Below are positions 31,642-49,660 of a DNA stretch of 55,758 nt, piece by piece. The notes beneath the pieces were generated by a model. That model saw only the letters and a program-made list of their open reading frames with translations. It was not told the DNA's origin and did not search any database. Every line of letters starts with the position of its first letter. Position 1 is the first letter of the stretch. A program made the translations under genes and the position numbers. The DNA comes from Myxococcaceae bacterium (GTDB lineage Bacteria > Myxococcota > Myxococcia > Myxococcales > Myxococcaceae), in the NCBI GenBank assembly GCA_019686135.1, contig JADGHL010000018.1, forward strand, positions 1 through 55,758. Reading direction: 5' to 3'.

Positions 31642-32472
31642 ATGATCCACGGCATCCGAATCACGTCGGTCGTCGCAGTCGTCGTCGCGCTCACCCTGGG
31701 CTGCGGCTGGAAGCGCACCGGGACGTCTCCGAAGGAGGAGATCGGCGGCGGCGGCGTCTCCACCGTCGAGCTCACCCTGCACAACGTCACCCAGGAGCAG
31801 GCGAAGAAGTTCATGGAGGATCTCGACGACTACGGCGACATCGAGAAGATCGAGCTGAAGACCTGGGCGAACGGCACCGCGGTCTACGTGATCGATGTCG
31901 ACGGCTGCGAGTGCGACCTGCCGGCGATGATGGGGAAGATCCCCGAGCCCGGCTTCACCTACCAGGGCCGCACCACGCGTATTTCCTACACAGCGTTCGA
32001 CAACCGCCCGCCCTCGCTGACGTTCGTGCAGCCGGAGGACGGGTTCATCACCAAAGACAAGCAGATCCAGGTCGTGGTGCAGGTCCCCGACGAGGACGTG
32101 GCGCAGGTCACCATCAACGGCAAGCCCACCTCGCGGAGCGGCGACAAGTTCAGCGTCACGCTGCCGCTGAGCGACGGCGCCAACGACATCGTCGCGGTGG
32201 CAAAGGACAAGACCGGCAACGAGTCGAAGGCGCAGATCCGCGTCGGGCTCGACGCCACCCCGCCGGAGGTGACCGCCACCGTGACCGTCCTCATCGAAGG
32301 CGACGTCGAGCCCGGCACCCGGGTGATCGTCAATGGAGAGGAAGTCCCGGTCGACGGTGATGGCCACTACGAGGCGAAGGTGAAGGTGAAGAAGGGCCAG
32401 AAGGAGGTCGAGGTGATCGCCATCGACTCCCACGGCAACCGCACCGAGACGATGAGGCCGATCGGCGAGTGA
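31642..32472 (+). CDS. Lipoprotein with Ig-like / glucodextranase-type domains
   Basis: The 276-residue protein starts at ATG 31642; the signal ends ALTLGC (C21). Residues ~38-110 form an alpha/beta domain (STVELTLHNVTQEQAKKFME) with an internal DGCECD cysteine pair. Two Ig-like beta domains follow, starting near RPPSLTFVQPEDGFITKDKQ and TPPEVTATVTVLIEGDVEPG; the sequence VTINGKPTSRSG...GANDIVAVAKDKTGN is typical of bacterial Ig-like (glucodextranase B-like) modules. A surface or periplasmic binding role is likely. It lies 66 bp after the protease lipoprotein and may share its transcript. Confidence 0.8.
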   Translation: MIHGIRITSVVAVVVALTLGCGWKRTGTSPKEEIGGGGVSTVELTLHNVTQEQAKKFMEDLDDYGDIEKIELKTWANGTAVYVIDVDGCECDLPAMMGKIPEPGFTYQGRTTRISYTAFDNRPPSLTFVQPEDGFITKDKQIQVVVQVPDEDVAQVTINGKPTSRSGDKFSVTLPLSDGANDIVAVAKDKTGNESKAQIRVGLDATPPEVTATVTVLIEGDVEPGTRVIVNGEEVPVDGDGHYEAKVKVKKGQKEVEVIAIDSHGNRTETMRPIGE

Positions 32473-32667
32473 GAGGGAGGCGCTGGCGCTGCCCCGGAGC
32501 GTTCCGGGCGACGTTCGACGCGAGCCCTGCGCGGCGGCATCAGCCGAACGGGTAGAGCGCCGCGGGGTTGCGACTCGTCGCGACCGCCAATCGACCGAGG
32601 CTTCCAACACCGGAACGATGGCCCGGCAACAGCGGAGCTTCCCAACGCCGGTTGTTTCTGCGCGCGT

Positions 32668-33276
32668 TTACAGCGCGTCGAGTCTGGCGTGGTCCAGGGT
32701 GATGACTCCCGCTGTGCCGGCGGCGTCGTAGTAGCCCTTGAACTGCAGCGTGTGGAGCGCGCCCTCCGTGGTGCGGACCACGTAGACCGTGTTCCGCGCC
32801 GTCAGCTTGTGCTTAAGCAGGTCGTACGCGTACCAGCCATCGCCGGCGAGGAACGGAGAGTCGTTCTCGCTTGACGGATCGTCCGCGTCCTCCAGGAACG
32901 CGCTCTCGTCCGGGGCGGAGGTGACCTCCTCCAGCGAACGGTCGGGGATCACCGCCACGCCGACACCGCCGGAGCCGTGGACGCCGGAGTTCGAGTACAC
33001 CTTGAAGCGCTGGAACTGCAGGTCCCAGGCGTTCGTCTCGAAGGCCTCATCCACCGAGAGCTCCTCGCCGGTGTCGAGATCGAAGTAGACCCACGCCTCC
33101 TTCGCGCTCGCGTCGACGATGGTGCGGGTGACGCCGCCGCCGAGGTCTTCATGGGTGATGCGCGCACCATGCGGCGTGGCACCGTCGAACGGGAACTCGT
33201 CGAGCAGGCTGGGGGCGCAGCCGACGCCTCCCGGAGCAATCGCCAGAGACATGAGAGCAAACAGCACGCGGTTCAT
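32668..33276 (-). CDS. HmuY-family putative heme-binding lipoprotein
   Basis: The 202-residue protein starts at ATG 33276, overlapping the TonB receptor stop by 4 bp. The signal ends GGVGC (C20). The core matches the HmuY pattern: AWVYFDLDTGEEL, then NAWDLQFQRFKVYSNSGVHG, then GDGWYAYDLLKHKLTARNTV and VYVVRTTEGALHTLQFKGYY. In Porphyromonas gingivalis, HmuY binds heme and hands it to the TonB receptor HmuR, encoded next to it; the same pairing is seen here. I did not verify the heme-ligand histidines, so ligand identity (heme or another tetrapyrrole) is inferred from context. Confidence 0.8.
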   Translation of the reverse strand: MNRVLFALMSLAIAPGGVGCAPSLLDEFPFDGATPHGARITHEDLGGGVTRTIVDASAKEAWVYFDLDTGEELSVDEAFETNAWDLQFQRFKVYSNSGVHGSGGVGVAVIPDRSLEEVTSAPDESAFLEDADDPSSENDSPFLAGDGWYAYDLLKHKLTARNTVYVVRTTEGALHTLQFKGYYDAAGTAGVITLDHARLDAL

Positions 33277-35657
33277 GGCAGCTCCAGCGTGACCCCACCG
33301 TAGAACTGCCTCGGTGGGAGAGGAAGGTAGGTGGCATCACCCGCCCCGAGCGCGTTGTTGACGCTCACGAACGCGCTGCCCCACGAGAAGAAGCGCTTGC
33401 CGACGCGGGCGTCGATCACCGCGAAGGGATCGGTCTTCACGGTCACGTCGTTGGTGATCCCGTTCGGGTAGAACGTCCGCGGACTGTTCCAGGCGACGCG
33501 CAGGCTCAGGTCCAGCGCGGCCGGCCGGATTCGACCCGACACCTGCGCGGAGATCCGGTGCATCGATCGCCCCTCGAGCGCCCGCTGCTGGTCCAGGTTC
33601 CGCGCGTCGGTGAGCGCATAGCCGACGTCGAGGTATCCGCCGGGCCACAGACGCAGCCGCGCGCTCGCCTCGCCACCCTGCGTGAGCGCGTGACCGACGT
33701 TCCGATAGCCGAAGGTGAGCGGCGTCTCCGGCGTCGGTTCGGCGATGGTGACGACCTCGATCAGGTTCTCCAGATCGTTCCGGAACACTGAGAGGCTGAC
33801 GCTGACATCGTCGTTGAAGCGGTGGTCGGCGGCCACCGTGGCGCCGCGCGAGCGCTCCGGTTTGAGCTTGGGATTGCCCTGGACCAAGTAGCCGACGCCG
33901 GTGTTCTCGAAGAGCAGGTACAGCTCCTGGAAGCTGGGCGCGCGGAAGCCCCAGCCGTAGGCGACGCGGAGGCTGGTGTCCGGACGCGGGGCCCACCGCG
34001 CGGCGATGCGCGGCGAAGGCTCGGTCCCGAACTGCGAGTCGATGTCGACGCGAAAGCCGGGCAGCAGCGTGAGCGTCGCATCCTCGAACACCTGCCACTC
34101 GTCCTGGACGAACACCGCGCTCCGTGTGCGGTAGCGCGTGTCGGCGCCCTGGCGCGCCGTGCGCTGGGAGAAGATCGCCTCCTCCACGCCCGCGCTGAGC
34201 AGGTTGCGCGCGGGGAGCTGGTGGTCCACCTGCGCGTTCAAATCGACCAGCCGTTCGATCGACGTGGTGAACGAGTCCTCCTGCCGCGAATTGCGCTGGT
34301 CCTGCAGCAGCTGGTCCTTGAACACCGAGTAGCGCACCGATCCGCTGAGCGTGGTGCCCGTACCGAGCTTGCCGCGGGCGGAAGTGCCGGCGTTGAACAG
34401 CTCGGTGCGCTCACGGCGGTCGAAGATCGCTCCGGTGGGCAGGAGATCGACGCCGGTGAGATCGCGCCACAGATAGTCGCTGTCGACGCGGAGCTGGAAG
34501 TTGGGGCTGGGCGCCCACGTCGCGCCGAGGTTCACGTCCGTCGAACCGGTGCCGCTGCCGGTGGTGGCAGGATCGTTCGTGTTCAGATCGTAGGGGCTGT
34601 TGCTGCGGCGCCCCGCCCCGGCGCGGACAGTGAAGGCGCCGCGCTGCAAGCCCGCATCCCCGCGGAGGTCGAGCTCGTTGCGCTCCCCGTACAAGGCGGT
34701 GATCGACGCCTCCTGCGGGCGGCTCCGCGAGCGCGTGATGATGTTGACCACGCCGCCCATCGCGTCCGCGCCGTAGAGCGCGCTGCCCGGCCCCTTGATG
34801 ATCTCGATCCGCTCGATGCTGCGGACGGGGATGCGCGAGAGGTCGATCAAGCCGCGGATGCGGCCGGTAATGCGCTGGCCATCCACCAGCACCATCACCT
34901 GCTCCGGGTTCATCCCCTGCAGGCGCAGGCCCACACCGCCGAAGGTGAAGTTGCCGTACTCAAAGTCGAGCCCCGGCTGCGTCTCCAGCAACTCCGCCAG
35001 GTCCTTTGCGCCCGAGCGCTCGATGTCGCGGCGGGTGATCACCTCCGTGGGCACCACCACGTCCTCGGCGTAGCGCTCCGTGCGCGTGCCGGTAACCACG
35101 GTCTGGCGGACCGGCGCGGCATCGTCGGATGCAGAAGCGAACGCGGTCGTGTTGTCCGCGTTGCCGGCCGACGTCGCGTTGCCGGCCGACGTCGCGTTGC
35201 CGGCCGACGTCGCGTTGCCGGCCGACGTCGCGTTGCCGGCCGCCGTCGCGTTGCCGGCCGCCGTCGCGTTGCCGGCCGCCGTCGCGTTGCCGCCCACCGT
35301 CGCGTTGCCGCCCTCCGTCGCATTGCCGCCCTCCGTCGCGTTGCCGCCCGCCGTTGTGCTGGCGGACGCCGCGATCGAACCCGATGCTGTCGTGGAGCCG
35401 GACGCGATCGCGGACTGGTACGCGGCAGCGTGAAGCGTGGTCGCGTCATGCGCGGACGGAGCGTCGACTTCCGTGCCAGTGACGGATGGACTCACAGAGT
35501 CGAATGCAGCCGCTCCGGTGGATTGAACCGAGCGGTCGATGCCTGCGCTGACGAGCGCAATTCCTCTGTCAGCGCCCGGCTCCGACTGTGTGGCAGCCGC
35601 CGGCATTGCGGCCAAAGACGCGACCAAAATGATCCATCGAAGATGCACGCGCGGCAT
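33273..35657 (-). CDS. TonB-dependent receptor with hexapeptide repeat linker
   Basis: The 794-residue protein (ATG 35657) has a signal peptide ending AAATQS. The plug domain begins near residue 187 (RQTVVTGTRTERYAEDVVVP) and includes LAELLETQPGL, VMVLVDGQRI and GPGSALYGADAMGGVVNIIT. A 22-stranded barrel follows, ending in FYGGVTLELP, with a C-terminal hydrophobic strand as needed for BAM insertion. Between signal and plug lies an unusual ~66-residue segment of eleven GNAT-x-A/G hexapeptides (residues ~101-166) encoded by an 18-bp tandem repeat. The coupled HmuY-like gene downstream suggests heme or tetrapyrrole uptake; BtuB-like cobalamin uptake is an alternative. No TonB box was identified with confidence. 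Confidence 0.9.
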   Translation of the reverse strand: MPRVHLRWIILVASLAAMPAAATQSEPGADRGIALVSAGIDRSVQSTGAAAFDSVSPSVTGTEVDAPSAHDATTLHAAAYQSAIASGSTTASGSIAASASTTAGGNATEGGNATEGGNATVGGNATAAGNATAAGNATAAGNATSAGNATSAGNATSAGNATSAGNADNTTAFASASDDAAPVRQTVVTGTRTERYAEDVVVPTEVITRRDIERSGAKDLAELLETQPGLDFEYGNFTFGGVGLRLQGMNPEQVMVLVDGQRITGRIRGLIDLSRIPVRSIERIEIIKGPGSALYGADAMGGVVNIITRSRSRPQEASITALYGERNELDLRGDAGLQRGAFTVRAGAGRRSNSPYDLNTNDPATTGSGTGSTDVNLGATWAPSPNFQLRVDSDYLWRDLTGVDLLPTGAIFDRRERTELFNAGTSARGKLGTGTTLSGSVRYSVFKDQLLQDQRNSRQEDSFTTSIERLVDLNAQVDHQLPARNLLSAGVEEAIFSQRTARQGADTRYRTRSAVFVQDEWQVFEDATLTLLPGFRVDIDSQFGTEPSPRIAARWAPRPDTSLRVAYGWGFRAPSFQELYLLFENTGVGYLVQGNPKLKPERSRGATVAADHRFNDDVSVSLSVFRNDLENLIEVVTIAEPTPETPLTFGYRNVGHALTQGGEASARLRLWPGGYLDVGYALTDARNLDQQRALEGRSMHRISAQVSGRIRPAALDLSLRVAWNSPRTFYPNGITNDVTVKTDPFAVIDARVGKRFFSWGSAFVSVNNALGAGDATYLPLPPRQFYGGVTLELP
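35161..35358 (-). repeat. Eleven 18-bp tandem repeats inside the TonB receptor gene
   Basis: Units begin (plus strand) with TTGCCG at 35161, 35179, 35197 and so on every 18 bp to 35341. The first four read TTGCCGGCCGACGTCGCG, the next three have GCC for GAC, and the last four diverge (CCACC, CCTCC, CCTCC, CCGCC). The unit encodes the hexapeptide GNAT-x-A/G. Copy-number change would keep the reading frame. Confidence 0.95.
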
Positions 35658-35807
35658 CTATCGAGCCAGAGCGCCACTTGCCAGTGAGAGCGGCGTTCCT
35701 CCGGTGCGCAGGCGGATGCCTGGCAGCATCCTGAGCGCACCCATCAACTCGACTCATGGGCCGCGGAAGCAGGAGGCTTGCGGCAGACGGAAGACCCATC
35801 CATCCAC

Positions 35808-38246
35808 TCAGCCGTCGCCATCGACCACCGTCAGAATCGGCTTCACGCTCACCAGACTGGCAGCGAACAGCGACGGCTGGATGGGGTCCGCGAAGACGTT
35901 GGCGAAGTCCTCCGGCGTGAACGCGCGCGCGAGCCGTGCGGCGAATGTCTCGCGCAGCAGCCGCACGTAGTACTCGACGTCGTAGTCGCGCGGGAGGTCG
36001 GCCCTGGGCGCGATGTCATCCGGATCTATGTCCGGCAACAGTCCGGCCCGGCCGCCCTGCGCGCGGTAGACGCGGACGCGCTCCCCGGGCACCCAGTGCG
36101 TCCGGCCGTTGGAGAGCATCGCCTCGTACGGCAGCTCGCGCCGCTGTTCCCGGAGCGCCAGGTACTCCTCGGGTGTCCGGGTGAGCCGCACCAGCGCCGC
36201 CACCTCTTCGGTCGAGATGCGCCGCTCGCGCAGGGCGAACACCGTGTCCACCCAGGCCGCGCGCACGCCGGGCACGTCTCCGGTGAGCAGGCACGTCAAC
36301 GCCCGGCGCAGAAACGCCTCGCCGAACGGCTCCGAACGGCTCGATCGGAACGCCACGCCGCGCAGCACGACCGGCCCATCGTGCGGAAGGAGCGCGTAGT
36401 TCTTTGGCTCGTGCGACAGCATCGCCGCGTACCGCCCCTCGTATTCGAGGTGCACGCGATCGGGCAGCAGCGCCGCCACTTCACGGACGACCCGGCGTTC
36501 GTCGGCCATGGTCCAATCGTCCGGCACCGCGAAGTACACGCCGTCGGTGTCCGCCTCGAGCAGCGTCACGCCGCGTTCGCGCAGGCCGCGGCAGATCCGA
36601 TCGAGCACCTCCCGCCCGCGGCGCGTCACTTCGTTCGCGGCGTGCACGTCGGAGAAGCGCGTCAGCCCGACCGCGCCGAGGTAGCCGTAGGCGGAGTTGA
36701 TGACCAGCTTCATCGCCGCGGAGAGCGCCTCGAAGGTGTGGCGCTCGGGCGAACCCGGCGGCGCCGCGCGGCCGCGCGCCTTCGCGTCGAGGCGTTGGTC
36801 GACGAGGCGATCCACCAGCGCCAGCAGCACGCCCAGGCGATCGCTCCTCGGGCCGATCCGGTAGTGGCGCATCAGCGACGGGTAGAGGCTGGCCACGTCC
36901 GCCTTGACCACGTTCCGGGCGACGCCGGTCGCGAAGAGGTAGAGCGCCGCGCCGGTGTGCGGCGTGCCGTCTCCGGTCTGGTGCGCAGGCAACGCCGCGC
37001 GCGACCGGAGGTAGGCACGAACGAGGAGTGGATCGAGCACGCCGGTGGCGGGCCCGGCATCCGCGAGGCGCTCGTAGCGCCGCGGCACCATCTGCGCGAG
37101 CGCGAACGCGGCACCGCCGAGCATCCTCGCCACGCCCGCAGCCTCGGTCACGTCCATGCTGGCGTAGCGCCGCACACGCTCCGGATCGCGCCGGAACACC
37201 TCGTAGACCTGTCCGCCCGGGATGAGCTCCCGATCCGCTTCGGCCAATCCGAGGTGGCGGGCGACGGCCTTGAGCCCGTGCCCGGGAAGGTCGCGCGCGG
37301 AGAAGTCGTAGCGCCGCACCGCATCGAGCGTGTCGATCAGCTCGCGCCCGGGGATGGTGTAGCGGATGCGGCGCGTTCCACCCTCGTCGCCATCGCGAGC
37401 CCAGGCGGCGTCCACCTCAACCCCCCGCCGCGCGCCACGCTGGCGCAGCCCCGCCGGGCCGATGCGCCCCAGCAGAAGGGGCACCCGGAGGATCTCCGCG
37501 CGTCGCTGAAGGAACGGCAGATCGAACCCATGCAGGTTGTGGTTCTCGATGATGTCCGGATCAGCGGCGCGAACGCGCGCACACAGCTCGCGCAGCAGTC
37601 GCGCCTCCGCGTCCGGCGAGTCGTCCTGCGCCTCCAGAATCTCCACGCGGCCGTTCGGATCGCGCAGGGCGATGAGGAAGATGCGGTCGACCTCCGGATC
37701 GAGCCCGGTCGTCTCGAGATCGACCTGCATCCTTCGCAGGTCGTCGAACGAGAGCCCACGGAAGTAGGTGCGCCCGGTGCTGACCAGGTACTGCTCCTCA
37801 GGCGGCAGCGCGAGGACCTCGCGTGGCCCGAGGTCCCGCACGTGCCCGACGTGCCGGCCCAGCCGCCGCGACGCGCCGGTGAGCACGGCGGACGTGAGCG
37901 CACGCCCGTCCCGCGCACGGACGAGGAACCGCAGCTCTCCGGGTCCGCGCAGCTCCTCCCAGGTCACCTGATTCGGCGCCAAGTCCGCGCGCTCCGGCTG
38001 CAGGCGGTGCCCGAGGTGCTCGAGGTCGCGCAGCGAGGACATGAGCAGCCACGGGCGGAAGCGCACGTCTTCGCGGAGCAGCCGGAGACTCTCCGGATCG
38101 CGGCGCCAGACGAACGCGCGGCCGTCTGGCTCCGCCCACACAGAGACGATGCCCGGCGTCGGGTCCCATCCCCACAGCCACTCGTCCTGCTCCGCGCGGG
38201 CGGGGGCCGGCGGGCACTCGGTGGAAGGCTGCACCTCGCCGCGCAT
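35808..38246 (-). CDS. polB: Family B DNA polymerase (DNA polymerase II type)
   Basis: The 812-residue protein starts at ATG 38246 (MRGEVQPSTE); GTG near 38264 is possible, and a still longer GTG start at 38366 would run through a hipB remnant and is disfavoured. The 3'-5' exonuclease is intact: Exo I VDLETTG (~176), Exo II IIENHNLHGFDLPF, Exo III YASMDV. Polymerase motifs are intact: A DVASLYPSLM (~448), B KLVINSAYGYLG (~510), C EADTDGVYF (~566). Such enzymes in bacteria are accessory, damage-related polymerases. No LexA-like site was recognised upstream. The stop is 150 bp from the TonB receptor start on the same strand. The 5' side borders decayed hipBA and Uma2-like genes. Confidence 0.93.
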   Translation of the reverse strand: MRGEVQPSTECPPAPARAEQDEWLWGWDPTPGIVSVWAEPDGRAFVWRRDPESLRLLREDVRFRPWLLMSSLRDLEHLGHRLQPERADLAPNQVTWEELRGPGELRFLVRARDGRALTSAVLTGASRRLGRHVGHVRDLGPREVLALPPEEQYLVSTGRTYFRGLSFDDLRRMQVDLETTGLDPEVDRIFLIALRDPNGRVEILEAQDDSPDAEARLLRELCARVRAADPDIIENHNLHGFDLPFLQRRAEILRVPLLLGRIGPAGLRQRGARRGVEVDAAWARDGDEGGTRRIRYTIPGRELIDTLDAVRRYDFSARDLPGHGLKAVARHLGLAEADRELIPGGQVYEVFRRDPERVRRYASMDVTEAAGVARMLGGAAFALAQMVPRRYERLADAGPATGVLDPLLVRAYLRSRAALPAHQTGDGTPHTGAALYLFATGVARNVVKADVASLYPSLMRHYRIGPRSDRLGVLLALVDRLVDQRLDAKARGRAAPPGSPERHTFEALSAAMKLVINSAYGYLGAVGLTRFSDVHAANEVTRRGREVLDRICRGLRERGVTLLEADTDGVYFAVPDDWTMADERRVVREVAALLPDRVHLEYEGRYAAMLSHEPKNYALLPHDGPVVLRGVAFRSSRSEPFGEAFLRRALTCLLTGDVPGVRAAWVDTVFALRERRISTEEVAALVRLTRTPEEYLALREQRRELPYEAMLSNGRTHWVPGERVRVYRAQGGRAGLLPDIDPDDIAPRADLPRDYDVEYYVRLLRETFAARLARAFTPEDFANVFADPIQPSLFAASLVSVKPILTVVDGDG

Positions 38247-38328
38247 GGGGCGCTCATAGGCCACACTGAACAGGTTGTCAGCGGCGGCCGCCGGGCAGCG
38301 CCCCGGGAAATCCATCCAATCGCGTGGA

Positions 38329-38505
38329 TGTGCCCCCCAGCTCGCGCTGCTGTCCGGCTGCGGCACAGCGTTTCTCTACGACCTGGAGAACGGGAAGCGG
38401 TCCGTGCGGCTGGACAAACTCGTGGACGTGCTCCAGGTGCTGGGGCTCGAGCTGCAGCTACGCCCCGGCAAGGCCGGATTGACCGTCGAGCCGCTTCCGA
38501 CATGA
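38329..38505 (+). pseudogene. hipB-like antitoxin, C-terminal remnant
   Basis: Residues LALLSGCGTAFLYDLENGKR and SVRLDKLVDVLQVLGLEL match the C-terminal half of the HipB-coupled helix-turn-helix family (TIGR03070: recognition helix then YDLENGK and LDKVLRVL). The N-terminal half of the HTH is missing: upstream sequence in this frame (back to 38275) has no resemblance. The stop overlaps the ATG of the hipA remnant by 4 bp, the usual hipBA arrangement. Confidence 0.6.

Positions 38506-47611: not shown

Positions 47612-49660
<2,049 letters not shown>

Follow-up and report, generated by a model that had tools for sequence, protein, structure and literature searches.

The locus at positions 32,668 to 35,657 of the window (the whole 55,758-nucleotide stretch of Myxococcaceae DNA that was analysed) raises two questions: whether a HmuY-type lipoprotein and a TonB-dependent receptor form an uptake pair outside Bacteroidota, of which HmuY proteins have been described as a trait (PMC12106395, PMC12583661), and what an array of 18-bp repeats does in the receptor. 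Both open reading frames of the pair proposed in the first-pass annotation are present on the minus strand, the receptor gene first and the HmuY gene second (Table 1), and they share an ATGA overlap, which is likely to couple the translation of the two genes. Their neighbors in the window, identified by Pfam search, are the genes of a B-family DNA polymerase and of an Ig-like-domain protein. The polymerase-like protein, which has an exonuclease domain, is encoded on the same strand (35808-38366) about 150 bp upstream of the receptor. A scan of positions 32400-36000 for sigma-70 promoters and terminators found none. A 621-aa plus-strand open reading frame lying over the receptor (33822-35687) was taken as a GC-rich antisense frame.

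Table 1. Positions, in window coordinates, of the features of the receptor–HmuY locus and the evidence for each.
Feature	Position	Strand	Evidence
HmuY-type predicted lipoprotein, 202 aa, Cys20 in GVGC/APSLL	32668..33276	-	PF14064 62.3 bits; fold Z 18.4 to 3h8t; Cys kept in relatives
ATGA overlap of receptor stop and HmuY start, 4 bases	33273..33276	-	ORF coordinates
TonB-dependent receptor, 794 aa	33273..35657	-	Pfam Plug 86.5 bits, TonB_dep_Rec_b-barrel 147.3 bits; model vs BtuB, Cir, ChuA
TonB box RQTVVTG, residues 184-190, C-terminal to the repeats	35088..35108	-	Ortholog conservation; structural alignment to BtuB
Low-complexity tail after the signal peptide, ~residues 24-184, predicted disordered	35106..35588	-	pLDDT; ortholog comparison
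11 tandem 18-bp units (ten GNATx[A/G] hexads and GNAD), residues 102-167	35157..35354	-	Tandem Repeats Finder, translation, codon test

An HMM search, one half of the refutation test set in the first-pass annotation, gave the smaller protein a PF14064 (HmuY) score of 62.3 bits against a curated cut-off of 27. Its AlphaFold2 model (mean pLDDT 85.7) showed the HmuY fold: it aligned with the Porphyromonas gingivalis HmuY–heme complex over 155 residues at 3.0 Å with a Z of 18.4, and with Bacteroides fragilis BfrB with a Z of 17.5, whereas unrelated folds in the same structural comparison gave a baseline of about 4. The HMM match and the fold alignment therefore confirmed that the protein is HmuY-like. 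It is a predicted lipoprotein by its conserved signal cysteine, Cys20, which is kept as CAPDL in most relatives; the lipobox of the window protein (G-V-G-C) is weak at position -3. Arg90 is invariant and corresponds in the alignment to the HRYDV Arg of the P. gingivalis protein. By alignment, both bis-His heme ligands of the P. gingivalis protein are absent, the position of H134 falling in a loop missing from the window protein and that of H166 being aligned with L153. Three residues past L153 lies His156, the single invariant His among 21 HmuY homologs, included in an invariant WYxYDxxxH motif of HmuY-type proteins. HmuY proteins of environmental Bacteroidota (Mucilaginibacter, Hymenobacter, Pedobacter; L083-L100) share WYxYDxxxH with the myxobacterial ones, the motif having been part of the search pattern. 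The sequence-closest solved relative of the window protein is BfrB (HmuY-Bf2). Bis-His ligation is not a requirement across the whole HmuY family, and BfrB binds a porphyrin ring without coordination of iron (PMC12106395).

The larger protein, laid out as a signal peptide, a tail of about 160 residues predicted to be disordered, a TonB box, a plug and a beta-barrel, is a TonB-dependent receptor by its Plug and barrel domains and its TonB box. From residue 185 on, its model aligned to BtuB, Cir and ChuA with Z values of 35-42, Cir and BtuB being the nearest structures. Within the TonB box, T186, V187 and T189 are invariant in 12 receptors, and the model at this site was structurally aligned with BtuB from residue 6 onward, where BtuB is known to have its TonB box. 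No NCBIfam heme or B12 receptor model reached its cut-off: the heme-receptor model TIGR01785 scored 176.5 bits (cut-off 316.85), and the B12 receptor model TIGR01779 (BtuB), the best NCBIfam score of this protein, 196.2 bits (cut-off 599.7). Both the FRAP and the NPxL box could be located in 11 receptors, and none of these has a His between them; Tyr590 is invariant. With TIGR01785 under its cut-off and the FRAP–NPxL His missing, the initial comparison of the receptor with HmuR does not establish it as a proven heme receptor. An N-terminal signaling domain of the FecA type was also sought in the tail, with no Pfam match at E 1 or better.

Among 195 genomes of the phylum Myxococcota, 103 encode a HmuY protein over the cut-off, and by genus a match is present in 41 of 90, with named records in Myxococcus, Archangium, Corallococcus and Citreicoccus, and a receptor homolog lies within 1.5 kb beside HmuY in 27 of the 30 best loci. 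The HMM match, the fold and the adjoining receptor thus bear out the claim that a HmuY-type lipoprotein and a TonB receptor are paired outside Bacteroidota; the further view of the pair as an unusual uptake system does not hold, since its frequency across the phylum makes it an established feature of Myxococcota and not an oddity of the window genome. A literature search that covered few subscription journals returned no paper linking HmuY with Myxococcota, and none with myxobacteria among the matches listed. In several Myxococcota, a single open frame encodes two or three HmuY domains (G134:C53:80003-81454, G130:C9, G075:C417 and others). The downstream neighbors conserved in Archangium-like MAGs (a hydrolase, an AMIN-domain protein and an LptD-like protein) were set aside as apparently unrelated context.

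Tandem Repeats Finder described the repeat array of the receptor with a period of 18, 11.0 copies, 96% matches, no indels and a score of 312. It is the same in-frame array of 11 units of 18 bp that had been placed at 35161-35358, read in another register. Its placement after the signal peptide stood, and its position between signal peptide and plug could be narrowed to the segment between the signal peptide and the TonB box, not that between the TonB box and the plug. In the protein the units follow in the order GNATEG (two), GNATVG (one), GNATAA (three), GNATSA (four) and GNAD, and within each hexad type a single AAT is the only difference in their DNA. When identical residues in successive units were compared (55 comparisons), 2 synonymous codon differences appeared; the codon use of the gene itself predicts 28, and the lowest number in 20,000 simulations was 13. 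This near absence of synonymous change, far beyond chance, identifies the array as a recent tandem DNA duplication of an 18-bp unit. Being in frame and recently expanded in look, the array could well vary in copy number. No other convincing array of this kind was found in the same genome, all eight matches to the strict pattern described below being this array itself. Elsewhere in the window, at 48272-48508, there is an imperfect 69-bp repeat of 3.4 copies, the reverse-complement consensus of which resembles thrombospondin type-3 repeats.

The tail that holds the array was compared with those of 26 orthologs, one of them cut by a contig end. Residues 1-184 of the window receptor were modeled with pLDDT below 50, as expected of disorder, in an alignment region covered for the most part by the query row alone. 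From the hydrophobic core of the signal peptide to the TonB box, the window receptor has 164 residues, and 25 orthologs have 13-77. The ortholog tails lack sequence conservation, short DAG or Pro-Ala motifs are frequent in several of them, and the proposed survey of orthologous receptors for repeats revealed no GNATxA repeat in any of them. Low-complexity tails without conservation are thus usual in this receptor group, the window receptor being the extreme case. Excluded from the comparison was a read-through frame (L018:559-3180, G005:C862) that joins a receptor ortholog to about 300 residues upstream of it, which have a HExxH-like motif and run straight into the TonB box; the frame is either a fusion or an assembly artefact.

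With the array peptide as query, many similar arrays were found in sister genera. A strict G-x-A-T-x-[A/G] DNA pattern of three units matched 12 of 17 genomes, the richest of them 304 times; the reversed pattern, on both strands, gave 0-7 matches. We read 40 array-bearing loci from two genomes. A lipobox-like Cys near the N-terminus stands ahead of the array in 19 of them, and a short tail with a Cys comes after it in 7; of the others, 5 extend past the contig end and 9 were left unclassified. Five of the seven tails reached the cut-off of an NCBIfam MYXO-CTERM model, and the other two fell short by 0.3 and 1.1 bits. The domains beyond the arrays in these relatives include glycosyl hydrolase 9, dioxygenase, NHL repeats and BNR repeats. 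Arrays of the form (GG[S/G/A/T/N]ATA)n occur in dozens of unrelated exported proteins (L150-L189; genomes G004, G005, G013, G025, G160 and G162), and contig ends often lie near them. The window array, made of tandem 18-bp G-x-A-T-x-[A/G] hexads beside an export or anchor signal, fits this GGxATA spacer group, an empirical group defined in the present analysis and not a curated family, of which our literature search found no mention.

Because similar arrays sit at anchoring positions of unrelated exported proteins, the most economical reading is that the window array would be a young example of a generic, flexible spacer that separates a folded domain from an export or anchor signal. It is also quite possible, if somewhat less than probable, that the array has no function whatsoever, having arisen neutrally by slippage within a tail where any sequence is tolerated. 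This is the only array in the genome, its codons are almost unchanged and so give no sign of long selection, and the ortholog tails are unconserved; however, the hexapeptide type persists in sister genera spelled with many synonymous codons, as if it were kept at the protein level, and it sits there at anchoring positions. A bolder form of the spacer reading, which we regard as doubtful, is that in a clade of the Myxococcaceae the GGxATA repeat would be an interchangeable, length-variable stalk leading from the anchor signal to the working domain in dozens of surface proteins, with its length tuned by slippage, and that the window receptor would be a newly recruited and still expanding case.

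As regards the cargo, our best guess is that the module would take up heme or a porphyrin. Downstream of HmuY, Myxococcus dinghuensis (L063), Corallococcus sp. (L071) and a Myxococcales MAG (L074) each have genes for Peripla_BP_2, FecCD and an ATPase. Scored on NF010068, the equivalog model of heme ABC ATPases with a cut-off of 261 bits, these ATPases reached 301, 307 and 263 bits, respectively, which favors heme or a related ring molecule. The missing P. gingivalis His ligands and the lack of a His between the FRAP and NPxL boxes of the receptor, on the other hand, speak against carrying the P. gingivalis mechanism over unchanged. The FecCD permeases of the same three loci scored best on BtuC, yet under the BtuC cut-off. 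In the window no importer genes adjoin the pair; the best heme-ABC ATPase score in the genome was 232.5 bits, under the cut-off, and its one full FecCD permease is encoded away from the pair. A cargo other than heme or porphyrin, such as a siderophore, a cobalamin-like compound or another metallophore, seems to us somewhat unlikely. The BtuB model as the top score of the receptor, its nearest structures (Cir and BtuB) and the BtuC-leaning permeases of the relatives point in that direction, as does BfrC, a HmuY-family member that binds neither heme nor porphyrin (PMC12106395). Against this, every receptor score lies far under the equivalog cut-offs, the adjoining ATPases of the relatives pass the heme-ABC cut-off and not a B12 or siderophore one, and heme or porphyrin is the ligand of most HmuY proteins that have been characterised (PMC12106395). 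Heme auxotrophy was rejected as the reason for the system, since ferrochelatase is encoded in the window genome, which makes uptake more likely to be for iron supply or salvage than for a need of heme.

The mechanism first proposed for the repeats, by which strain-to-strain differences in their number would tune how the receptor contacts TonB, is highly improbable: the array is in frame, recent and homogeneous, and hence slippage-prone, and a segment preceding the TonB box of FoxA was reported to help TonB binding (PMC11658791), but the window array lies N-terminal to the conserved TonB box, so that extra units would lengthen the free N-terminal tail with no change in the spacing between TonB box and plug, the ortholog tails span 13-77 residues, and a similar repeat type is present in proteins that have no contact with TonB. 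By analogy with FoxA, the upstream stretch might contact TonB in a weaker sense, with a weak effect.

Taken together, we consider it probable that the locus encodes a two-gene outer-membrane uptake module for a heme- or porphyrin-like ligand, with a recently duplicated spacer array in the tail of the receptor. The HmuY-type lipoprotein would be anchored at the cell surface by its lipidated Cys, where it would capture a planar ligand, in all likelihood heme or some other porphyrin, and pass it to the TonB-dependent receptor for import powered by TonB. Within the disordered tail of the receptor, the 18-bp unit would have been multiplied by recent duplication of the slippage type, and the array may act as a neutral or weakly selected spacer of a hexapeptide type common in exported proteins of related myxobacteria. 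If this is correct, the presence of the pair in about half of the sampled Myxococcota, in some of them alongside an ABC importer with a binding protein, would broaden the known distribution of HmuY systems and bring in soil-dwelling predators, which can encounter heme and porphyrins in the prey they lyse, and the repeat spacer would offer a simple case of length evolution in the stalks of surface proteins.

The window pair shares with P. gingivalis HmuY and B. fragilis BfrB the HMM match, the fold, the predicted lipoprotein nature and the adjoining TonB receptor gene, whereas it differs in having neither P. gingivalis His ligand, in the invariant WYxYDxxxH with His156, in its myxobacterial host and in the order of the genes. 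Like the Bacteroidota hmuYRSTUV operon it combines HmuY with a TonB receptor, but neither the HmuS dechelatase nor HmuTUV lies beside it, and an ABC importer of the binding-protein type (Peripla_BP_2, FecCD and ATPase) accompanies it in the myxobacterial relatives. BtuB/BtuG and other receptor–surface-lipoprotein pairs of Bacteroidota likewise join a TonB receptor with an adjoining surface lipoprotein; their lipoprotein, however, is unrelated, and the Bacteroides BtuB-BtuG structures appeared as barrel matches only. As in receptors of the FecA/FoxA type with a signaling domain, there is an extra segment upstream of the TonB box, although here it is of low complexity, predicted to be disordered and free of a signaling-domain HMM match. 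The array differs from the GGxATA arrays of related Myxococcaceae in belonging to a TonB receptor, in its near-identical DNA copies and in being the sole array of its genome, and shares with them the 18-bp period, the G-x-A-T-x-[A/G] unit and the location, with an export or anchor signal on one side and a folded domain on the other.
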